Part shown: in pieces, positions 722 through 41,867 of the stretch
Layout: each line of letters begins with the position of its first letter
Position numbering within the stretch: the first letter of the stretch is position 1
Origin: Lachnospiraceae bacterium
Lineage (GTDB): Bacteria > Bacillota > Clostridia > Lachnospirales > Lachnospiraceae
Assembly: GCA_017532145.1 (NCBI GenBank)
Contig: JAFXJR010000041.1
Location: forward strand, 1 to 41,867
Reading direction: 5' to 3'
DNA length: 41,867 nucleotides
Program-made: the position numbers and the translations under genes
Notes under the pieces: generated by a model
What the model was told of the DNA's origin: nothing
Databases searched by the model: none
Seen by the model: only the letters and a program-made list of their open reading frames with translations

Positions 722-1693
722 ATGCAACTTCTTGACTGGAAAGAAACAAACTTAAATATAAATACTCCTTATGATGATGTTTTCCGTACCCTACTGATGG
801 ATTGTCGCCAACTTATCATTCCAATAATTAACGAAATTTTTGGTACGAATTATAGCGGAAAGGAAACGGTAATCTTAAAGGAAAATGAAATATTTTTAAA
901 ATATCCAGACAGTAGTTCAAAAAAGAGAATTACTGATTCCTCTCTGCTGATTTCCACTGTTCAGAAAGCGGCCCATTATCATATAGAATGCCAAAGTACA
1001 TCTGATGGTAGTATGCTAATTAGAATGTACGAATATGGTTCTCAAATTGCTTTAAAGGATGGCATATACAAAGATGGAGTTTTGGAGGTATATTTTCCTG
1101 AATCAGCTGTACTATATTTACGGCACACCAAACATACTCCTGACCAGATGACTATCCGAATTCATACTTCTGGTGGTAGTATCTCTTATGATATTCCTAC
1201 CTTGAAAGTACAAGCCTATAGCATTGAAGATATCTTTTCCAAAAATCTTCTATTTCTGCTTCCTTTTTATATTTTTACCTTTGAAAAACAGCTACCAAGG
1301 CTGGAAGCAGATTCCTATCAAAGACAACAGCTAAAGAAATTCTATGCTGATATTACGATAAAACTGGATAGATTATGCTATAAAGGTGAGTTGGATGAAT
1401 ATACAAAAAAGACACTTTGTCAAATGTCAGAAAAAGTATTAGACAGTATTGCATCAAAATATGATGCCGTTCGAAAGGAGGTTAGGGAGGTTATGGGTGG
1501 AAATATTTTAGAATATGAAGCAAAAACTATCCTGCTTAGAGGTCGGGAAGAAGGTCGGGAAGAAGGTCGAAAAGAAGGTCAAGAAGAAGCAGCCCACAGA
1601 ATGTTTGAAGCTGGATTTTCTCCACAGGATATTTCAAATATTCTGAAAATCGATTTGGAAAAACTAAATTTTTTAAAGGAATCCCCCAAATAG
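722..1693 (+). CDS. Rpn/PD-(D/E)XK nuclease family transposase-like protein
   Basis: The 323-residue protein has the layout of the Rpn / 'PD-(D/E)XK nuclease family transposase' group. The YDDVFRTLL opening is followed by a short strand with Asp72 (RITDS) and then Glu89-Cys-Gln91 in YHIECQS, which together make the nuclease D...ExQ signature. The C-terminus carries four tandem G-R/Q-E/K-E-type units (about residues 274-289), also typical of this group, and ends in a small helix-turn-helix-like stretch (GFSPQDISNILKI). AAAGGAG lies 6-7 bases before the ATG. It is the only plus-strand gene in the window. Family members act in RecA-independent DNA exchange or exist as domesticated mobile genes. 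No terminal repeats or target duplications are visible around it, so it is a stand-alone accessory gene. Confidence 0.85.
   Translation: MQLLDWKETNLNINTPYDDVFRTLLMDCRQLIIPIINEIFGTNYSGKETVILKENEIFLKYPDSSSKKRITDSSLLISTVQKAAHYHIECQSTSDGSMLIRMYEYGSQIALKDGIYKDGVLEVYFPESAVLYLRHTKHTPDQMTIRIHTSGGSISYDIPTLKVQAYSIEDIFSKNLLFLLPFYIFTFEKQLPRLEADSYQRQQLKKFYADITIKLDRLCYKGELDEYTKKTLCQMSEKVLDSIASKYDAVRKEVREVMGGNILEYEAKTILLRGREEGREEGRKEGQEEAAHRMFEAGFSPQDISNILKIDLEKLNFLKESPK
1541..1588 (+). repeat. Four tandem 12-bp units inside the Rpn-like gene
   Basis: Four near-identical 12-base units of the form GGTCGGGAAGAA (1541-1552, 1553-1564, 1565-1576, 1577-1588) encode Gly-Arg/Gln-Glu/Lys-Glu repeats. The first two units are identical and the others differ by one to three bases. 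Such in-frame tandem units can change copy number by slippage and would lengthen a charged linker without breaking the frame. Confidence 0.85.
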
Positions 1694-1700
1694 TATATCG

Positions 1701-1741
1701 TATCGTAAAGCCCCATAGCTAAAGCAAGGGGCTTTATGATA
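1701..1741. terminator. Stem-loop between convergent genes
   Basis: The arms TATCGTAAAGCCCC (1701-1714) and GGGGCTTTATGATA (1728-1741) pair over 14 bp with one G-T wobble and a 13-base loop. The hairpin begins eight bases after the stop of the plus-strand gene and faces the end of the minus-strand metH/metF-like gene at 1770. That is the position of a shared terminator for convergent transcripts. A long T-run is lacking on both sides. Confidence 0.6.
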
Positions 1742-1769
1742 CATTGAATAAAATTCATCTTCTAATTTA

Positions 1770-3548
1770 CTACAATATCTTCTCCAACAATCTGACTCGA
1801 TTAAACGGAATGGAAAAATAATAACCATCCACAAAATCTTTCGTCATTTCCATTACCTGCTTAGCAATTGCTACTCCTTCCAGTTCTCCTTCTTCTTTGC
1901 TCATTTCCGGAGAAAACCGGGCAATCGTTTCATCATCCACATGAATACCTACCATCTCATTTTTAATAAACAGGGCGTTACGCAGACTGACCAGAGGCAT
2001 AATTCCACAAAGGATTCTGGCACCTGTTTCTTCCTTTATCCTTCTTACCCGGTCTGCATCCTCCAAAGTAAAGATTGGCTGAGTCAGGAAAAATTCTGCC
2101 CCATGCTCCATCTTTCTTCTGGTTCTTTTTATCTCTACCTCCAGATTGGGGCGTCCGGGATTTAAAGCACCACCGAAGGTAATAGGGTCTTTAGCCAACT
2201 CCTCTCTATTCAACTCCTGAATAATCTTCATCAACCCTACTGCATCAAAGTTAAACACACTTTTAATATCCTGCCGCATTAAAGTAGGCACCGGATCCCC
2301 TGTAATCGCCAAAATATTCCTTACTCCGTTAATATAGCCTCCCAATAGCTGAGAACGCATAGCAATCGCATTTCTGTCCCGGCAACAGATATGGGGCATT
2401 ACACACAGTCCTGTCTCCTGCTGTACCTTCATCGCCATCAACAGAGAATCTGCTCTGGTTCTTCCTGAGGGAGAATCCGGGAAAGTCAGTACATCTACCT
2501 CCATAGATTGCAGACGAAAGGCGGCTTCCATTACCTTCTCATCATCAATACCCGGAGGAGGTGACAGTTCTACAGCAATCAGCTTTCGTCCCTTCTCCTT
2601 CTTTCCCCAAAAGCTACTGTCCTTTAACCGTACTCCCTTGGGAACAGCACGCATGGGAACTGCCCTTCTTTCTCCCCCTGCACAAACGTCTATCCTATGA
2701 CACATTTCCTTAACATATTCTGGATTGGTTCCACAGCAGCCGCCAATAAAATCTACACCCAGAGCAGCAATTTGCTGCATTTTATCGGCAAAATATTCCT
2801 TACTGTTGCTAAATACCTTCCGATTTCCAACATATTTAGGATAGCCTGCATTGGGCAGGGCAGTGATAAACTTATCGTTTGGAAAATCCATACCCTCCAG
2901 CAATTTCTGCAGATGTCCGGGACCTACACCACAATTAAAACCTACTGCATCAATCTCCGGTACTCTACCAGCTTCCTCCATCAGTCTGCGGACACTGATA
3001 CCAGCATTGCTGTGGCCGTACTGATTTACACAGAATTGAACGATAATAAACAACTCCCTCTCCTGCTTTATCTTCTGAATAGCCGGCAGGATATCCTCCA
3101 TATCCATAAAAGTCTCAAATAATAGAATATCAGCACCTGCTTTTACCAATCCTTCACTGATTAACAGATACTCTTCCTGTCGTTCTTCTGCTGTCATTCC
3201 TATACTGTCTAAAAGAGGTCCCACATCACCTGCAATAAAACAATCCTCTCCCTGTCGTTTTCCACAGGCTTCTACCGCCTTTACTGCATTTTCCCAGCCT
3301 GCCTGCAGATTCTGGAAAAGTCCTTCTCTATCACAGCCCAATGCCCTCCGGCCAGACGCAAAGGTATTCGTTCTGATTAATACTGCTCCAGCTTCCAGAT
3401 ACCCCTGATGTACCTGTTGTATCCGTTCAGGCTGTGACAGATTATAACACTCTGGCAGACGTGCTTCACCATATAGCTGGGAAAAATAGGTGCCAAAAGC
3501 ACCATCACATATGATTTTTTTCGTTTTTAAATACTCTTGTATTTTCAT
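1770..3548 (-). CDS. Bifunctional homocysteine S-methyltransferase / methylenetetrahydrofolate reductase
   Basis: This 592-residue fusion resembles Bacillus YitJ in size and domain order. The N-terminal half is a homocysteine S-methyltransferase barrel starting CDGAFGTYFSQ, with the zinc-binding cysteines in GFNCGVG (Cys206) and GGCCGTNPEY (Cys271, Cys272). The C-terminal half, from about residue 320, is a MetF-type reductase (AVELSPPPG near its start, then FPDSPSGRTRADSL, ITGDP, FFLTQPIF). It would make methionine from homocysteine and feed one-carbon units. An upstream ATG at 3584 would add 12 residues and overlap the preceding gene, but it has no ribosome binding site. The chosen ATG at 3548 is preceded by AGAGGA and TAAGTTAAAA, the same context as the Crp-like gene at 41461. 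It is the last gene of the run starting at 13299. No SAM riboswitch or T-box is visible ahead of it. Confidence 0.9.
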   Translation of the reverse strand: MKIQEYLKTKKIICDGAFGTYFSQLYGEARLPECYNLSQPERIQQVHQGYLEAGAVLIRTNTFASGRRALGCDREGLFQNLQAGWENAVKAVEACGKRQGEDCFIAGDVGPLLDSIGMTAEERQEEYLLISEGLVKAGADILLFETFMDMEDILPAIQKIKQERELFIIVQFCVNQYGHSNAGISVRRLMEEAGRVPEIDAVGFNCGVGPGHLQKLLEGMDFPNDKFITALPNAGYPKYVGNRKVFSNSKEYFADKMQQIAALGVDFIGGCCGTNPEYVKEMCHRIDVCAGGERRAVPMRAVPKGVRLKDSSFWGKKEKGRKLIAVELSPPPGIDDEKVMEAAFRLQSMEVDVLTFPDSPSGRTRADSLLMAMKVQQETGLCVMPHICCRDRNAIAMRSQLLGGYINGVRNILAITGDPVPTLMRQDIKSVFNFDAVGLMKIIQELNREELAKDPITFGGALNPGRPNLEVEIKRTRRKMEHGAEFFLTQPIFTLEDADRVRRIKEETGARILCGIMPLVSLRNALFIKNEMVGIHVDDETIARFSPEMSKEEGELEGVAIAKQVMEMTKDFVDGYYFSIPFNRVRLLEKIL

Positions 3549-35708: not shown

Positions 35709-37049
35709 TTATCTTTTATTTGATTTTTTCCAAATACGCATTTTCTCTGCTTCCTGAATTAACTCATCTCTGAAATCAGGATGTGCAATACTAATAATCG
35801 CCTCTGCCTTCTGCCAGGTTGTCATTCCCTTAATATCAACTAAACCATGTTCTGTTACCAAAATATGGGTATTGGCTCTGGTATCTGTAACAATAGAACC
35901 AGTCTTCAGCGTAGGTACCAATCTGGACTTTACCTCACCATCCTTAGTCTTAAAGGTAGATGAGCAGCAGATAAAACTCTTACCACCCTTAGACAGATAA
36001 GCTCCCAGTACAAAATCCAACTGACCACCTGCTCCACTGATATGTGCAGTACCTGAACTTTCAGAACTAATCTGACCAAACAAATCCACCTCTACCGCAT
36101 TGTTAATCGACATAAAATTATCGATGGAAGCCAATGTTCTGATATCGTTTGTATAGTTTACAGGAGCAGCCATTACCTTTGGATTTTCATTCAGGAAGTC
36201 ATACATCTTCTGAGTACCTGCGGCAAAAGCAAAGCACTGTCTTCCCTTATCAATGCTCTTTTTCATACCAGTTACTCTTCCGGCCTCAGTCATCTCTACA
36301 AAAGCATCCACATACATTTCCGTATGCACACCCAAATCCTTTAAATCAGACTGGGCAATCAGTTTTCCTACTGCATTAGGCATACCACCAATTCCCAACT
36401 GAATACAAGCCCCATCAGGAATCTGTGCAGTGATAAATTCTGCTACCTTCATATCAATTTCTGTAGCTGCTGCAGAACCTAATTCTGCCATCGGGTCATG
36501 TCTGCCCTCTACAATCATATCCACCTGGGAAATATGGAAGCTTTCCTCAAAACCACCATAGCATCTGGGCAGATTCTTATTTACCTCTACAATAATCTTT
36601 TTTGAATTTTCAGCAGCTGCCACCAAGTGAGAAGGATTGGGACCCAGATTAAAATAACCATGCTCGTCCATCTCTGCCACCTGTACCATCAGTACATCAT
36701 TCCCAATAATATGGTCTCTATAATATCTGGGAAGCTCAGAATAACGGATTGGTGCATAGAAGCAAGCGCCTGTAGCAATGTGCTTTCTTTCTACACCACT
36801 CATATGCCAAGAATTCCAGATAAAATGCTCTGCTGGATCGGGTACATCAAAAATAGCCGGCTTCCACAGGCAGACACCACCTCTTACCTTAACATCATTT
36901 AATTCTGCATAACGAGCTGCCAGAGCCTCATCCAATACTCTGGGATGGCCACTGCACCATCCATAGTCTACCCAATCCCCGCTCTTTATTATGCTGACTG
37001 CTTCCTGAGCAGTACATAATTTCTGTTCATACATTTTCCTTACGTCCAT
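35709..37049 (-). CDS. Butyryl-CoA:acetate / acetyl-CoA hydrolase-family CoA-transferase
   Basis: This 446-residue protein resembles butyrate-producer CoA-transferases (But/4-hydroxybutyrate CoA-transferase family) over its full length: [24 protein letters not shown] at the start, [14 protein letters not shown] (residues 215-228), and [13 protein letters not shown] with the likely catalytic Glu244. [27 protein letters not shown] and [14 protein letters not shown] close the protein. It would move CoA between acyl-CoA and acetate or a similar acid. GGAGG lies six bases before the ATG. Exact acid specificity (butyrate, propionate or other) cannot be fixed from sequence; residues after DYGW ([11 protein letters not shown]) differ from the classical Roseburia enzyme as I remember it. 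Confidence 0.85.
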
Positions 37050-37179: not shown

Positions 37180-37392
37180 CCACTGCTGTATAGACGGATA
37201 CCTTACAATATCACCATGTCTTACACAGTGTCCACAAACGTTAGATTCGTGCTAATTCCCTTCCTACCATAAGAAACTTCAGACCACCAAAGGCATACAC
37301 ATTTCTTCTGATAATATATTTTAACTACATAGCTATCTCTATCACAAATATAACCACAATACTTCCCAAGGATTGACACATTGGATAAACAA

Positions 37393-37423
37393 AAGCAACC
37401 CCAGTAAAAAACTGAGGCTGCTT
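37393..37423 (-). terminator. Intrinsic terminator after fprA
   Basis: On the minus strand AAGCAGCCTCAG (37412-37423) pairs with CTGGGGTTGCTT (37393-37404), twelve pairs with two wobbles. TTTTGTTT follows. It lies 18 bases after the fprA stop and ends the acyl-CoA-dehydrogenase/fprA transcript. Confidence 0.88.
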
Positions 37424-37441
37424 TACATTACTGTTTACCAA

Positions 37442-38647
37442 TTATTTTTCAATTGACTTAATCAGCGCATCAGCAAGTGCGTCGAATTCGGGTTCATTTG
37501 TCTCATTAGCGGATGAGTTTACAGACACCTGTGAGCCTAATACCAGACATTCCTTCAACTCTTCATTAATGAAGGTTCTCATTAAATCACCTGACTTAAT
37601 CGCCCAAGTACCATTCTCAATGATACCAAAAGTTCTCTTCTGGAAATTCAGAGTCTTAAGGTGATGAAGGAAATCATACATCACAGGATAAATCTGTAGA
37701 TTGTAAGTAACGGATGCCAGTACAATATGGCTGTATTTAAATGCTTCAGCAACCAGATAAGACACATGTGTGCTGGAAACATCATATACTGCCACATTTG
37801 TCATACCCTTTTGGCAAAGAGTAGAGGCCAAATCCTGTGCTGCTGCTTCAGTATTTCCATACATAGAAGCATAAACAATCAGTACACCTTTCTCTTCAGG
37901 CTCATATCTGCTCCACTTATCATGCTTATCAATATAATAATTTAAATCAGTACGCCAAACCGGACCATGCAGAGGACAGAACATCTTAATCGGAACTCCG
38001 CCTGCCTTCTGCAACAGATACTGTACAAAAGGTCCATATTTTCCAACAATATTGCAGAAGTATCTTCTTGCATCATCAATCCAGTCTCTATCAAAGTTTA
38101 CCTCGTCATTAAAGAGCTTACCATCCAAGGAACCGAAGGAACCAAAAGCATCTGCAGAGAAAAGTACACCATTGGTTGTATCAAAAGTAACCATCGCCTC
38201 AGGCCAATGCACCATAGGTGCAGCTACAAAAGTTACTTCATGCTTTCCAAAGGACTTGGTATCTCCCTCCTTTACTTCTTCTTTTCTGCCCTCAATCTTA
38301 AATCCAAACTGATGCATAAACATAAACGATTTCTCATTACTGATTACCTTGCATTCAGGATATCTAATCAGCACCTCTTCCATAGAAGCTGCATGGTCTG
38401 GCTCCATATGGTTAATCACCAAATAATCTAATGCCTTTCCATTCAGTACTTCTTCTACATTTTTAATAAAATCCCTACAGCCGGACCAGTCAACTGTATC
38501 AAACAGAACTGTCTTCTCATCCATCAAAAGATATGAGTTATAGGAAACACCTCTTGGAATGGGATGTATATTCTCAAACAGATGGGTACGTTTGTCATTC
38601 GTACCAACCCAGTACAAATCATCAGTTACCTTTCTAACACTGCTCAT
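37442..38647 (-). CDS. FprA-family A-type flavoprotein (flavodiiron oxygen/NO reductase)
   Basis: This 401-residue protein has an N-terminal metallo-beta-lactamase-like diiron domain and a C-terminal flavodoxin domain (about 254-400, FMN loop IVYASMYGNTEAAAQ). All diiron ligands are present: His80, Glu82, Asp84 (NHMEPDHAAS), His147 (MVHWPE), Asp166 (SADAFGS) and His227 (PLHGPVW). Such enzymes reduce oxygen to water, or nitric oxide to nitrous oxide, with electrons from rubredoxin. That fits its place 33 bases after a gene whose product ends in a rubredoxin domain. AGGAGG lies ten bases before the ATG. It probably protects an anaerobe from oxygen. Confidence 0.94.
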   Translation of the reverse strand: MSSVRKVTDDLYWVGTNDKRTHLFENIHPIPRGVSYNSYLLMDEKTVLFDTVDWSGCRDFIKNVEEVLNGKALDYLVINHMEPDHAASMEEVLIRYPECKVISNEKSFMFMHQFGFKIEGRKEEVKEGDTKSFGKHEVTFVAAPMVHWPEAMVTFDTTNGVLFSADAFGSFGSLDGKLFNDEVNFDRDWIDDARRYFCNIVGKYGPFVQYLLQKAGGVPIKMFCPLHGPVWRTDLNYYIDKHDKWSRYEPEEKGVLIVYASMYGNTEAAAQDLASTLCQKGMTNVAVYDVSSTHVSYLVAEAFKYSHIVLASVTYNLQIYPVMYDFLHHLKTLNFQKRTFGIIENGTWAIKSGDLMRTFINEELKECLVLGSQVSVNSSANETNEPEFDALADALIKSIEK

Positions 38648-38680
38648 AGTATAACTACCTCCTTGTTCTATTTATCTATC

Positions 38681-40600
38681 TTATATTGATGATGGGATAA
38701 AGTTCTCCCTCTCTTCTCCACACTCAGGGCAGGTCCACTCTTCAGGCAGACTCTTATAGCTTGTACCCGGTGCAATATCGCCTTCTTCATCTCCATTCTC
38801 AGGAATATATTCATATCCACAGCCAAGGCAGAGATATCTTCCTACCGGAGCCGGATTAGGTTCTTCTGCAACGGCTCGCTTCATCTTCACCATCGGAGGT
38901 GCAGGCTTTTTCTCATTACCATCATCCAATGCTTCTGTCAACAGAGGCAGAATCTCATTCAAATCACCTACAATACCATAATCAGCATTCTTAAAGATAG
39001 GTGCATTGGCATTCTTATTAATTGCTACAATAGTTGCTGCCTCTTTGATACCCTTCAAATGCTGACCCGCACCAGAAATACCGCAGGCAATATAAAGATT
39101 ACCTGTAAACTTCTGTCCACTCATACCAACATAACGGTTCAAAGGTACATACATCAATTGCTCTGCAACCGGTCTGGAAGAACCTACTGCTGCTCCTGCT
39201 GCTTTTGCTAAGTCATAAACAAGCTGCATATTCTCTTTGCTACCAATACCCTTTCCTGCACTAACTACTCTCTCAGCAGAAATAATCGGTGTATCAATAT
39301 CAATACCAACAGAGAAGTCGTGTCCATCAGCTTTCAGACAGTCTACCAACTGTTTTACCTTATCTTCAGAACTTCCTTCTTTGAAAATCATCTTCTTACG
39401 GTTGCCTGTAACAGCTCCCTTCTTCTTTGGCTTCGCTGCTGTACCAGAAGATTTTGCAGCCTTACCCAAAATATAAGAAGAAATAACCACATTTTGAATT
39501 TCATTAGTTCCTTCATAAATTGTACAAATCTTGGCATCACGGTATGCACGCTCTACATCCATACCCTTCAGATAACCTGTTCCTCCAAAAATCTGAAGAG
39601 AATCATTTACTACCTCCAGACAGATATCAGATGCATACTTTTTAGCCATTGCTGCTTCCATTCCATAAGGCTCATGATGCTCCTTTAACTCAGCCGCACT
39701 ATAAACCAGAAATCTAGCTGCACGAATCTTAGTAGCCATTTCTGCAATCTTAAACTGAATCGCCTGTAACTGGGCAATAGGCGCATTAAACTGCTCTCTT
39801 TCCTTAGCATATTCCACAGCTGCCTCATAAGCCCCCTGAGCAATACCCAAAGCCTGAGCTGCGATACCAATACGACCACCATCCAAGGTGGACATAGCAA
39901 TCTTAAAGCCCTGTCCCTCTTTGCCAAGCAGGTTTTCCTTAGGAACCTTTACATTGTCGAACAGTAACTGTGCTGTAGCTGAAGAACGGATACCCAGCTT
40001 GTCATAATGATCACCAAAGGTAAATCCTTCCCAACCTTTTTCAACGATAAAAGCACTAATCCCCTTTGTACCAATACCTGGTGTTGTTACAGCAAAAACT
40101 ATATATATATCAGCTTCACCACCATTAGTGATAAAGATTTTTTCACCATTCAGTAAATAATAGTCTCCCATCAGCTCTGCAGTAGTCTCTGTTCCACCTG
40201 CATCAGAACCTGCATTAGGCTCAGTCAGACCAAAAGCACCTATCTTTTCACCTTTAGCTAATGGAACCAGATATTTCTGTTTCTGTTCTTCAGTACCAAA
40301 AGCAAAAATAGGATATGTACCTAAAGATACATGTGCAGATAAAATAACACCTGTTCCTCCATCTACACGAGAGAGTTCCTCCACTCCGATAGCATAACTA
40401 ATAATATCCTTACCCATACCACCATACTCTACAGGATAGGGTAGTCCCATATATCCCCTCTTTCCAAAATCTTTAATCTGCTCTTTGGGGAATTCACTAT
40501 TCTTATCCAACATAAAGGCAATGGGTTTAATCTCTCTTTCCACCCATTCCCTGATATCAGCACGAAGCTGTTCATGCTCTTCTGATGTCTTGTAATACAT
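38681..40600 (-). CDS. Acyl-CoA dehydrogenase / EtfA FAD-domain / rubredoxin fusion protein
   Basis: The 639-residue protein joins three redox modules. Residues 1-382 are a short-chain-type acyl-CoA dehydrogenase (GAFGLTEPNAGSDAGG, LQIFGGTGYLKG, catalytic base Glu363 in IYEGTNEIQ). Residues about 441-555 are the C-terminal FAD-binding domain of EtfA (VSAGKGIGSKENM, VGMSGQKFTGNLYIACGISG, VAINKNANAPIF). Residues 588-635 are rubredoxin, with iron cysteines Cys591, Cys594, Cys624 and Cys627. The EtfA N-terminal domain and all of EtfB are missing, so flavin-based bifurcation is not expected. Electrons could run acyl-CoA FAD to Etf FAD to rubredoxin within one chain, then to FprA encoded next. AGGAGG lies nine bases before the ATG. 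Confidence 0.93.
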   Translation of the reverse strand: MYYKTSEEHEQLRADIREWVEREIKPIAFMLDKNSEFPKEQIKDFGKRGYMGLPYPVEYGGMGKDIISYAIGVEELSRVDGGTGVILSAHVSLGTYPIFAFGTEEQKQKYLVPLAKGEKIGAFGLTEPNAGSDAGGTETTAELMGDYYLLNGEKIFITNGGEADIYIVFAVTTPGIGTKGISAFIVEKGWEGFTFGDHYDKLGIRSSATAQLLFDNVKVPKENLLGKEGQGFKIAMSTLDGGRIGIAAQALGIAQGAYEAAVEYAKEREQFNAPIAQLQAIQFKIAEMATKIRAARFLVYSAAELKEHHEPYGMEAAMAKKYASDICLEVVNDSLQIFGGTGYLKGMDVERAYRDAKICTIYEGTNEIQNVVISSYILGKAAKSSGTAAKPKKKGAVTGNRKKMIFKEGSSEDKVKQLVDCLKADGHDFSVGIDIDTPIISAERVVSAGKGIGSKENMQLVYDLAKAAGAAVGSSRPVAEQLMYVPLNRYVGMSGQKFTGNLYIACGISGAGQHLKGIKEAATIVAINKNANAPIFKNADYGIVGDLNEILPLLTEALDDGNEKKPAPPMVKMKRAVAEEPNPAPVGRYLCLGCGYEYIPENGDEEGDIAPGTSYKSLPEEWTCPECGEERENFIPSSI

Positions 40601-40676
40601 AATGCTGATCCTCCTTCCTAATTATCCTCTGCACTTTGATTAAATTTTATATGATAAAATTTATTATTTTATACAT

Positions 40677-40726
40677 ATTATATAATAAAATTCAAAAAAG
40701 TATGTAACAAAAGTTACATACTTTTG
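40677..40726 (-). promoter_or_regulatory. Crp/Fnr-type operator and promoter of the acyl-CoA dehydrogenase/fprA unit
   Basis: A 30-base perfect palindrome (40697-40726) contains TGTAA-CAAAAG-TTACA (40703-40718), the two-half-site layout of CRP/FNR-family operators. On the minus strand a perfect TATAAT lies at 40677-40682 with no good -35 box. If transcription starts near 40670, the operator centre is at about -41, the class II activation position. The same palindrome, with six T residues after it, could also end the transcript of the regulator gene 34 bases upstream, so it may do both jobs. Confidence 0.6.
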
Positions 40727-40759
40727 AAAAATTACAATATTACAAAAAATTTTCCATTT

Positions 40760-41461
40760 TTATAATAGATTTTCCATTTTTTCCCTATCTACGACTTTTA
40801 TTTTATGTTTCTCTACTTCAATTAATCCTTCTTCTTGTAGTCTCATAAGAGTTCTTGAAAGAGATGGTCTGGCAACTCCAAAAAAAGAAGCCATTTCTTC
40901 TCTTTTCATTTTTAGTCTAACCACACCATAATCATCCATATTATCCAGAAGCCAGGTAAAAATCTTTTCTTGTAAAGAAGAATGATTTACTACATCCAAT
41001 TTTTTAATAGCCAACCATTCTTTTTCTGAAAGAATTTCCAGCATATTTTTAATTAATTGTGCATGATGAGTACACGCATCATTACAAAAACAATAAAAAA
41101 ACTGCCAAGGAATCTGTAATACTTCTACATCCGTAATTGCTTCAATATCATACCAATATTTATTATAGTTACCAAAAAAATAATGCTCTCCAAAAATAGT
41201 ATTTTCTTCTACTTCATAAAGAATATTCTTTTTCCCTGAACTTAAATTTCTAACAATGGCTACTCTTCCACATAATAATACAAATATAGTTTCTGGTTTT
41301 TCCCCCTGATTACAGATTAATGCTCCATGTGAATACTTTTTTTTCACTGCCTGAGAACATAGTATCATCTGCTGAATACAAGATTCCTCAATATTCTGAA
41401 AAAGTTTATTATTCTTTATCAAAGAAATACCTTCAGAGATATTCTTCGTTGTATATTTCAT
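40760..41461 (-). CDS. Crp/Fnr-family transcriptional regulator
   Basis: This 233-residue protein has an N-terminal cNMP-binding-type beta-roll (about 20-120: GALICNQGEKPETIFVLLCG, FGEHYFFGN). A dimer helix and a C-terminal winged helix follow (MKREEMASFFGVARPSLSRT, then LMRLQEEGLIEV, about 185-217). Seven cysteines (28, 35, 50, 64, 124, 126, 130) are present. They include a CFCNDAC cluster that could bind metal or sense redox, though no classical FNR N-terminal Cys set is seen. The beta-roll lacks a clear cAMP-binding R-x-A-S motif. AGAGGA lies ten bases before the ATG. It precedes the acyl-CoA dehydrogenase gene, with its likely operator between them. Confidence 0.9.
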   Translation of the reverse strand: MKYTTKNISEGISLIKNNKLFQNIEESCIQQMILCSQAVKKKYSHGALICNQGEKPETIFVLLCGRVAIVRNLSSGKKNILYEVEENTIFGEHYFFGNYNKYWYDIEAITDVEVLQIPWQFFYCFCNDACTHHAQLIKNMLEILSEKEWLAIKKLDVVNHSSLQEKIFTWLLDNMDDYGVVRLKMKREEMASFFGVARPSLSRTLMRLQEEGLIEVEKHKIKVVDREKMENLL

Positions 41462-41529: not shown

Positions 41530-41688
41530 AAAGCAATATACACCTACCACATAGGAGGTGTAATTTAAGCCTGATGGTCTAAAACGGTATATTCTCAAAT
41601 TTTACTATTAAAAGGGATACCCTCAAAACCGAACACCTTTTCCTCTACTCTCTCCATCTTCCTCTTCCCAGCTTCCCCAGCCTTCCTG

Positions 41689-41867
41689 GATAAGCCCTCG
41701 GCCGATTAGTACCGGTCAGCTCCACACATTACTGTGCTTCCACCTCCTGCCTATCTACCCCGTACTCTACGGGGGGCCTTACTATCTTTTGATATGGGAT
41801 ATCTCATCTTGAGGGGGGCTTCACGCTTAGATGCCTTCAGCGTTTATCCCTTCCGGACTTGGCTACC
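41689..41867 (-). rRNA. 23S ribosomal RNA, 3' end (partial)
   Basis: The reverse complement of the right edge reads as the 3' terminal part of 23S rRNA: GGTAGCCAAGTCCGGAAGGG, GATAAACGCTGAAGGCATCT, AAGCGTGAAGCCCCCCTCAA, then GAGCTGACCGGTACTAATCG and GCCGAGGGCTTATCC. The gene continues beyond the window; the 3' boundary is estimated to within a few bases. No 5S rRNA is found between it and the terminator at 41501-41529. Confidence 0.95.

Follow-up and report, generated by a model that had tools for sequence, protein, structure and literature searches.

A gene for an acyl-CoA dehydrogenase fused to an EtfA FAD domain and a rubredoxin (BCR), followed by a gene for a flavodiiron protein (FDP), FprA, and preceded by one for a Crp/Fnr-family regulator, raises two questions: where would the electrons of the acyl-CoA go, and what would turn the pair on? 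Both are asked here of the window, the whole 41,867-nucleotide stretch of Lachnospiraceae DNA that was analysed (Table 1). Judging from sequence, we hold with high confidence that BCR and FprA make up a butyryl-CoA:O2 oxidoreductase (BOOR) and that the Crp/Fnr protein encoded next to them probably turns the pair on. The enzyme mechanism is already published as BOOR, and the window copy joins it; what is new is the regulation of BOOR, in that one clade has an HcpR2-like Crp/Fnr protein in place of an Rrf2-type one, together with a conserved GTAACnnnnGTTAC operator.

Table 1. Features of the locus, in window positions
Feature	Position	Strand	Basis
Crp/Fnr-family regulator with an HcpR2-like recognition helix (VARPSLSR), 233 aa	40760..41461	(-)	cNMP_binding + HTH_Crp_2; rule of PMC1274295
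Predicted operator, 30-bp inverted repeat; core GTAACnnnnGTTAC at 40704-40717	40696..40725	(-)	Sequence conservation
-10 box TATAAT, 28 bp from operator centre	40677..40682	(-)	Spacing test
BCR, acyl-CoA dehydrogenase-EtfA FAD domain-rubredoxin fusion, 639 aa	38681..40600	(-)	ORF + Pfam
Acyl-CoA (butyryl-CoA) dehydrogenase domain, residues ~1-384, catalytic E363	39449..40600	(-)	Pfam; closest experimental structure, C. difficile Bcd (5ol2_C)
EtfA C-terminal FAD domain (domain II only), residues ~401-560	38921..39400	(-)	ETF_alpha 440-519; aligned solved EtfA chains
Rubredoxin domain, residues 588-634, C591 C594 C624 C627	38699..38839	(-)	Pfam; Cys in 81/81
FprA, class A flavodiiron protein, 401 aa	37442..38647	(-)	ODP + flavodoxin domains; diiron ligands 81/81
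Intrinsic-terminator-like hairpin closing the two-gene unit	37392..37424	(-)	14-pair stem + T-rich tail; consensus match only
Butyryl-CoA:acetate CoA-transferase (But), 446 aa, separate neighbouring unit	35709..37049	(-)	TIGR03948, 797 bits (cut-off 674.8)

A fusion protein and its flavodiiron partner

The preliminary description of this DNA had claimed a single polypeptide with a catalytic Glu363, an EtfA FAD domain and a four-cysteine rubredoxin, trailed 33 bases later by an FprA with a full diiron site; domain matches, open reading frame coordinates and a residue census bear this out. All Pfam matches of BCR exceed the gathering cut-offs (Acyl-CoA_dh_N, 6-118; _M, 122-217; _1, 229-373; ETF_alpha, 90.2 bits; Rubredoxin, 63.8 bits) and place in one chain the order Bcd, EtfA C-terminus, rubredoxin that BOOR requires. 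E363 aligns with the Glu of the YEGT motif in C. difficile Bcd and, like the four rubredoxin cysteines and the EtfA FAD-site residues R476, S494, S509, Q513, H514, N528 and D540, is invariant in all 81 rows of a census comprising the best 80 relatives and the window; D546, kept in 76 of the 81, is the sole exception among the site residues. FprA starts 33 bases past the BCR stop and carries the diiron ligands H80, E82, D84, H85, H147, D166 and H227, so that the unit is bicistronic with a class A FDP, as in BOOR. The terminator said to end the pair is present as a hairpin (37424-37392), whose standing as a terminator is that of a match to the consensus. Between 33000 and 41867, no Rfam family besides a 23S rRNA end is matched at gathering thresholds.

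The F. nucleatum pair FN1424 (BCR) and FN1423 (FDP) was named BOOR by Bystrom & Wolthers (2024), as recounted in a 2025 review (PMC12288474). According to that account, electrons pass from acyl-CoA through ACAD-FAD, EtfA-FAD and rubredoxin to the flavodiiron protein and O2 without free Etf or NADH, and the proteins form an alpha4-beta4 complex with butyryl-CoA:O2 activity and, reportedly, no NO reductase activity. The route from acyl-CoA to FprA that had been proposed for the window is thus supported by its homolog; as to the acceptor, given earlier as oxygen or NO, the oxygen half stands and the NO half is unproven. The window BCR is 74-76% identical over ~635 residues to homologs from Fusobacterium species other than F. 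nucleatum (L043, L045 and L059), with 80-81% identity in the ACAD domain and 67-70% in the FDP, a close homology to Fusobacterium BOOR in that sense.

We infer O2-reducing activity, and the substrate chain length, for the window copy. Butyryl-CoA would reduce the dehydrogenase FAD via E363; electrons would move on from there to a second FAD, held by the tethered EtfA domain II, and singly from this one to the rubredoxin Fe(Cys)4 site, ending at FprA, whose FMN and diiron site would reduce O2 to water. The crotonyl-CoA formed could be re-reduced by a separate Bcd-EtfAB (bifurcating in studied homologs), feeding Rnf; the genome encodes crt-hbd-bcd-etfB-etfA and two PF02508 Rnf/Nqr-family genes.

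The pairing extends well beyond the window. A pattern search of a genome collection returned at least 590 stretches and, among the matches listed, 563 encode a relative of the query (E <= 1e-3), so BCR is not a chance feature. In the best 80 of these 563, which share at least 73% identity over nearly the full query, an FDP lies downstream of BCR in 79, the remaining contig stopping too soon to tell. The preliminary description had named a lack of conserved adjacency among relatives as grounds for dropping its proposal, and these counts go against that objection. The same adjacency, for which a survey had been suggested, is found in 15 of 16 sampled family genomes, including the window's own, a sample that overlaps the best 80 relatives (L096/L060, L097/L075, L098/L082, L100/L080) and whose 15 include one locus matched in frame-shifted pieces (L106, G205) and one partial locus (L108, G291); L166 (G311), probably the same organism as L013, was counted once. 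An FDP match with an in-frame stop (L038) was kept in the residue counts and left out of the FDP tree. The parts of BOOR can nevertheless be separated: L107 (G122), the exception in the family sample, has a complete fusion and no FDP within 1.5 kb, and the sister lineage G025 keeps the regulator, the operator, EtfA-rubredoxin and the FDP without the dehydrogenase domain. In the FDP tree G025 groups with 13 clade rows at 100/100 support, the only grouping used, given the very long branch leading to the outgroup L124; the BCR tree, made by a quick method with SH-aLRT only, leaves 24 of 78 inner forks open, and many are weak.

An HcpR2-like regulator and its predicted operator

The gene preceding BCR encodes a protein with matched Crp/Fnr domains, in line with the Crp/Fnr regulator first described beside the pair. 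The HcpR2 branch of this family is marked by Arg-Pro at positions 180/181 and by a GTAACnnnnGTTAC motif (Rodionov 2005, PMC1274295, as far as that source was available). R198-P199 of the window regulator fit the Arg180/Pro181 rule with CRP numbering aligned by eye, RPSLSR is common to 19/19 regulator relatives, and a GTAACnnnnGTTAC operator accompanies the gene. HcpR2 also controls hcp; the hcp region of the same genome (L160) contains no exact GTAAC core and adjoins a different, divergent Crp/Fnr gene (24% identical), so hcp was rejected as a co-target there and we call the regulator HcpR2-like rather than HcpR2. A wider regulon likewise finds no support in this genome, where exact GTAACnnnnGTTAC sites number two (the window and C102:21966) against eight for the reversed control, and TGTAACnnnnGTTACA with up to two mismatches is found at 111 sites, its control at 139.

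Among the best 80 relatives, GTAAC arms lie within 250 bp upstream of BOOR in 9 of 12 loci of a Lachnospiraceae-centred clade and in none of the 68 others; the operator is absent from the clade loci L014 and L017, and a search of their genomes at E <= 1e-15 returned nothing homologous to the regulator. Across 10 aligned loci the core GTAACnnnnGTTAC never changes, although loops and flanks do. Of 11 loci, 10 have the operator 28-29 bp from the -10 box, against a maximum of 5 in 2000 shuffles, the loci being related rather than independent. We posit that the regulator would work as a class II activator, turning on the pair from a GTAACnnnnGTTAC site that lies ~41 bp ahead of where transcription starts; its activator role and its signal we infer.

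Elsewhere the neighbour is of another type. Among the best 80 relatives, BOOR lies behind an Rrf2-type gene in F. gastrosuis (L043) and in 15 further loci (in L061 that gene is the second nearest ORF), and seven loci whose available sequence includes no upstream ORF (L018, L025, L030, L047, L064, L080 and L085) are unclassified. L015, also without one, was assigned via tblastn and then excluded as perhaps misassembled, a regulator fragment running into BCR at a 4.2 kb contig end with no operator. For gut Clostridia, Roseburia inulinivorans among them, a preprint (PMC13404960) places BOOR beside an NsrR-like Rrf2 factor (C0FN14) and, in its accessible part, names neither Crp, Fnr nor HcpR; our literature search found no paper connecting HcpR to BOOR.

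Alternative readings

Could the chain run backwards, with reduced rubredoxin (from an NADH:rubredoxin reductase) driving enoyl-CoA reduction and FprA a mere neighbour? Butyryl-CoA dehydrogenases can work in either direction, and the potentials of rubredoxins are close to that of their substrate couple, yet the near-universal pairing with an FDP (79/80) and a canonical Bcd-EtfAB already available in the genome for crotonyl-CoA reduction make this very improbable. The F. nucleatum pair, moreover, is described as running forward to O2 (PMC12288474). Kinship with Bcd and EtfA could also suggest an electron-bifurcating Bcd/Etf variant, an identity that we reject as scarcely conceivable: the fusion has no match to PF01012 (N-terminal ETF), so it holds neither EtfB nor EtfA domain I and the usual bifurcating flavin is left without a binding site, just as the preliminary description had argued, and in this assembly (87% complete) PF01012 is matched only in the separate EtfAB on contig C65. 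The palindrome, for its part, could do no more than end transcription of the regulator gene, leaving BOOR outside Crp/Fnr control. As RNA it folds into a strong hairpin (z -6.5) ahead of a T-rich stretch, and its outer arms vary among loci while remaining complementary by eye; it is probably a terminator as well, and part of its conservation may reflect this. A terminator and no more is nonetheless a poor fit to a core fixed amid changing loops and flanks, to the constant distance from the -10 box, to the presence of the core near 14 of 19 regulator relatives (12 of 17 without the BOOR loci L112 and L125), and to L020 from the cultured clade member Anaerostipes sp. 992a, the one locus that by eye has the core without outer arms, T-run or adjacent Crp/Fnr gene, its site being preceded by a response regulator gene; we regard this reading as quite unlikely.

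HcpR-type regulators answer nitrosative stress, and herein lies a mismatch, since the F. nucleatum BOOR, as reported, reduces no NO. The clade BOOR might then act mainly against NO, its FDP reducing NO, alone or besides O2, with electrons from butyryl-CoA, hence the HcpR-like switch. The HcpR2-like regulator and operator fit such a role, as does the NsrR-like factor beside BOOR in other Clostridia (PMC13404960), but the neighbours of the regulator relatives are divided: of ten scanned, three are Prismane/Hcp-type (L117, L119, L123) and one is another FDP (L124), whereas five are unconnected with NO (PFL-like, L,D-transpeptidase, YqeC/MobA-like, aromatic acid exporter, one family-less); L162 also has another FDP. 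Two second-sphere positions, each uniform in the 81 BOOR FDPs of the census, disagree as well, with Asp53 resembling Asp52 of the NO-selective E. coli FDP (Lys53 in the O2-selective Entamoeba FDP) and Tyr263 being Entamoeba-type (Tyr271; Ser262 in E. coli); as a swap of both in the E. coli FDP left selectivity unchanged, they decide little. With the F. nucleatum BCR-FDP complex reported to have no NO reductase activity (PMC12288474), we consider a mainly anti-NO enzyme unlikely and retain BOOR as an oxygen-reducing pair.

Implications

At the wall of the gut, butyrate-forming anaerobes are exposed to oxygen as well as nitric oxide, and BOOR removes oxygen at the cost of a butyrate precursor. 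If HcpR-like control in one clade and NsrR-like control in others hold true, two unrelated, presumably NO-linked regulators act on the same oxygen enzyme, a pattern that bears on whether BOOR is an in vivo NO-stress enzyme and whether inflammation diverts carbon from butyrate. It is conceivable, if somewhat doubtful, that in the Lachnospiraceae-centred clade BOOR came under a dedicated HcpR-like activator serving nitrosative stress, making it part of an inflammation response that burns butyryl-CoA on NO/nitrite, and that it may reduce NO besides O2, in which case inflammation would lower butyrate output directly. The sister lineage G025 suggests that EtfA-rubredoxin-FDP, as a module, can be coupled to a different source of electrons.

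Comparison with known systems

The window pair shares with F. nucleatum BOOR its domain order, two-gene operon and class A FDP, and the cell has a separate Bcd-EtfAB and Rnf-family genes in both cases; But adjoins the pair in the window, whereas F. nucleatum uses an acetoacetate:butyryl-CoA transferase. The bifurcating Bcd-EtfAB of C. difficile (PDB 5ol2) has a homologous dehydrogenase and EtfA FAD domain, but the fusion lacks EtfB and EtfA domain I and has an added rubredoxin. In other multidomain FDP chains, namely the C. difficile NADH:O2 FDP and the Trichomonas FDP-Rd-reductase fusion, as described in the material available, rubredoxin likewise feeds the flavodiiron centre, with NAD(P)H as donor in place of acyl-CoA. 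On the regulatory side, the BOOR of F. gastrosuis and the 15 other loci has an Rrf2-type regulator where the window has Crp/Fnr and a GTAAC operator. Roseburia inulinivorans, by the preprint's account (PMC13404960), has the same enzyme pair beside a presumably redox- or NO-sensing regulator, which is of the Rrf2 Fe-S type there and an unrelated Crp/Fnr protein here. HcpR2, as presented in PMC1274295, shares with the window regulator the Arg-Pro at 180/181 and the GTAACnnnnGTTAC motif, but the candidate target here is BOOR, not hcp.

The enzyme and its partner

The fusion and the flavodiiron protein (FDP) FprA form an enzyme that is already known, of which the window copy is a further member. 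Excerpts of a 2025 review (PMC12288474) describe the architecture, an acyl-CoA dehydrogenase (ACAD)-EtfA-rubredoxin protein (BCR) plus an FDP, for Fusobacterium nucleatum under the name BOOR (butyryl-CoA oxygen oxidoreductase; primary paper Biochemistry 2024, 63:2352), place it in many Firmicutes and couple Bcd-Etf and Rnf to it; part of a July 2026 preprint (PMC13404960) has BOOR adjoining an Rrf2 factor in gut Clostridia, Roseburia among them. Compared with three Fusobacterium homologs, the window's BCR is 74-76% and its FDP 67-70% identical. The window's own genome also carries crt-hbd-bcd-etfB-etfA (contig C65), whose separate Bcd is 54% identical to the fusion's ACAD domain, and two neighboring genes of PF02508, a family spanning Rnf and Nqr (contig C81).

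All domains of the fusion exceed Pfam cut-offs: ACAD (residues 6-373), the ETF_alpha FAD domain (440-519) and rubredoxin (588-634). C. difficile Bcd (5ol2 chain C) is the solved structure that matches the fusion best, and in EtfA chains of known structure it is the C-terminal half, with the FAD, to which the Etf part aligns. The preliminary description had read one polypeptide holding an ACAD with Glu363, an EtfA FAD domain and a four-cysteine rubredoxin, followed by an FprA with a full diiron site, and it was correct in all particulars that could be checked: the Pfam matches agree, and E363, R476, S494, S509, Q513, H514, N528, D540 and the four rubredoxin cysteines are present in 81/81 rows aligning the window with 80 relatives (the best 80 of at least 563 fusion-related loci), D546 in 76. 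The seven diiron ligands likewise occupy all 81 rows of the FDP alignment, which comprises 79 relatives, the window's FprA and the copy from genome G025 (the L038 row has an internal stop).

The proposed survey of fusion-fprA adjacency found the pairing conserved. Of the 80 relatives, 79 have an FDP downstream in the same orientation, within 500 bp in 78 cases and at 1272 bp in L078; in the remaining one, L041, the contig stops 90 bp past the fusion. Among 299 family genomes, sampled one per genus and partly overlapping the relatives, 16 (the window's own included) carry the fusion or a fragment thereof, and in 15 an FDP stands beside it. In the exception, G122 (locus L107), no FDP occurs within the visible 1.5 kb; the fusion there is complete (1489-3360, minus strand) with a shortened linker, and the adjacent gene encodes a 271-aa protein. 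Presence is patchy in the window's genus, since only 2/16 genomes, own included, have the fusion. On contig C71 of genome G291 (L108/L125), where pieces of regulator, fusion and FDP were searched separately, the regulator is split in two, the fusion match covers residues 1-253 only and the FDP start is absent; this locus appears degraded, which could be decay or assembly error.

Features of the BOOR locus and of the variant in genome G025
Feature	Position	Strand	Remarks
23S rRNA gene, 3' end	41686-41867	minus	Rfam
Crp/Fnr regulator	40760-41461	minus	Pfam
Palindrome, 30 bp	40696-40725	minus	
ACAD-EtfA-rubredoxin fusion gene	38681-40600	minus	Pfam
fprA	37442-38647	minus	
Terminator-like hairpin	37392-37424	minus	
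Butyryl-CoA:acetate CoA-transferase, separate unit	35709-37049	minus	TIGR03948, 797 bits (cut-off 674.8)
G025 EtfA-rubredoxin/FDP variant	L112:2287-3066; L158:5538-7675		FDP 448 aa

A clade linked to Crp/Fnr

The two nearest upstream ORFs of the 80 relatives include an Rrf2-type gene in 16 loci (a BLASTP cluster, with Pfam confirmation for two members), a same-strand Crp/Fnr gene in 8 (seven complete, a fragment in L015), a divergent Crp/Fnr gene in 6 and other or unclassified genes in 50. Against the Rrf2 and divergent rows, the nine same-strand rows (window included) account for one label change on the fusion tree, a count that leaves out the 50 other or unclassified rows, and all nine fall within one 13-row clade (support 99, SH-aLRT, quick tree) together with L014, L017, L018 and L020. 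The divergent genes (L033, L036, L067, L083, L086, L087; three labelled Anaerovoracaceae) belong to a different Crp/Fnr type; with a GTTGCAnnTnnCAC element found by eye upstream of the fusion in 6/6 loci, they may mark a second occasion on which BOOR was captured by a Crp/Fnr regulator.

At the window's right end, the 23S rRNA gene ends on the same strand some 225 bp ahead of the regulator gene, and an Rfam scan gave no 5S rRNA match between them. In the window, the gene that comes next after fprA encodes the butyryl-CoA:acetate CoA-transferase, and 3 of the 12 other clade loci share this order (L013, L022 and L024, 93, 83 and 65% identical), L015 and L017 having less than 1 kb of downstream sequence; this adjacency links BOOR to butyrate release.

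Operator and promoter geometry

The sequence GTAACnnnnGTTAC, core of the palindrome, begins 77-129 bp ahead of the fusion gene both in the window and in 9 of the 12 other clade loci, and is absent from all 68 non-clade loci (250 bp upstream, or whatever part the contig covers); with all five-base arms around a four-base spacer counted, the next most frequent reached 2/12 clade loci. This core is unchanged across 10 aligned loci, and the flanks vary. Of 11 loci (nine from the clade, the window and L112), 10 have a TATAAT-like hexamer 28 or 29 bp from the operator center, and L019 lacks such a hexamer at 5 of 6 matches; 2000 mononucleotide shuffles gave at most 5 loci with a common offset within 1 bp, a result that is not a probability because the loci are related. 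Class II Crp/Fnr activators bind near -41. Read as a -10 box, the hexamer would put the operator center near -41, where such an activator sits.

Regulator and operator tend to co-occur (L015 counted neither way). They adjoin in seven loci; in L018 the operator sits at a contig end, and the regulator lies on another contig end of the same genome beside an identical palindrome (L161). The L020 operator follows a response-regulator gene, and the only regulator homolog in that genome (39%) is elsewhere, at L162, where a further FDP and a further core site adjoin it. L014 and L017 have neither an upstream operator nor, in genomes of unstated completeness, a regulator homolog at E <= 1e-15. Because it folds into a strong hairpin, the palindrome may double as terminator of the regulator gene.

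Regulator specificity

The window regulator, with recognition helix VARPSLSR, shares the Pro-type helix and the exact GTAACnnnnGTTAC motif with the HcpR2 branch, in which Pro at CRP position 181 is tied to that motif and which is predicted to control hcp in anaerobes (Rodionov et al., PMC1274295, in excerpt); nitrosative-stress defence of C. difficile requires HcpR, according to part of another study (PMC12915319). Homologs at E <= 1e-20 occur in 99/299 family-sample genomes. The 19 best further relatives from this sample (L110-L128, BOOR loci L112 and L125 among them) all contain RPSLSR, and 14 have GTAACnnnnGTTAC in the locus, the next commonest arm reaching 3. Neighbors scanned at ten of them include Prismane (Hcp-type) genes at L117, L119 and L123, an FDP at L124 and EtfA-rubredoxin at L112; the other five show no evident NO link (PFL-like at L113, L,D-transpeptidase at L116, YqeC/MobA-like at L121, aromatic acid exporter at L110, no family at L111). 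At L121, L124 and L127, in three genomes, a stretch resembling rubredoxin (48-52% identity to that of the fusion) occurs no more than a few hundred bases from the HcpR2-like regulator gene. A cysteine triad of the window regulator (C35, C126, C130), invariant in an 8-row alignment and present in 17/19 family relatives, might hold a cofactor or serve as a thiol sensor.

Control of hcp would be the expectation from HcpR2. The window's own genome has its hcp (contig C112, L160) beside another, divergent Crp/Fnr, P0006 (L160:2606-3301, minus), 24% identical to the window regulator and with helix VDRSAMSNEL; a TGTTGTnnnnACAACA repeat separates the two genes (L160:3341-3356). That hcp region contains no GTAAC core, and the only further exact operator site in the genome is C102:21966. 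With hcp thus beside a different Crp/Fnr and without the core, the window regulator is HcpR2-like in specificity, yet appears dedicated to BOOR.

A variant without the dehydrogenase

In G025, the single genome examined of its genus, a window-type regulator and operator precede a 259-aa protein with the EtfA FAD domain and rubredoxin only, followed by an FDP (L112 and L158, contig C14). This FDP is 78% identical to the window's and clusters with the 13 clade rows (support 100/100, FDP tree). The dehydrogenase domain is present in all 80 relatives of the census, although these were selected as best matches to the entire fusion; its absence from G025 thus looks like a loss, if not a proven one. 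G025, one of the 16 family-sample genomes with an EtfA-rubredoxin module, has other acyl-CoA dehydrogenase genes, and the arrangement suggests a self-standing role for the EtfA-rubredoxin part, as an adapter that connects a dehydrogenase to the FDP.

Comparison with known systems

We found no published link between HcpR and BOOR in the full texts searched: the three papers there that name BOOR lack 'HcpR' and 'Crp' and use 'Fnr' only for flavin reductase, 'HcpR' and 'butyryl-CoA' meet only in a Porphyromonas phylogenomics paper, at one mention each, and a looser search was covered for the 20 matches listed of 75. The additions to the known BOOR are modest and comprise a putative HcpR2-like control of class II geometry and the sister that lacks the dehydrogenase. 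In the review, F. nucleatum BOOR is reported as reducing O2, not NO, and why a regulator of the nitrosative-stress type would control such an enzyme is a testable question.
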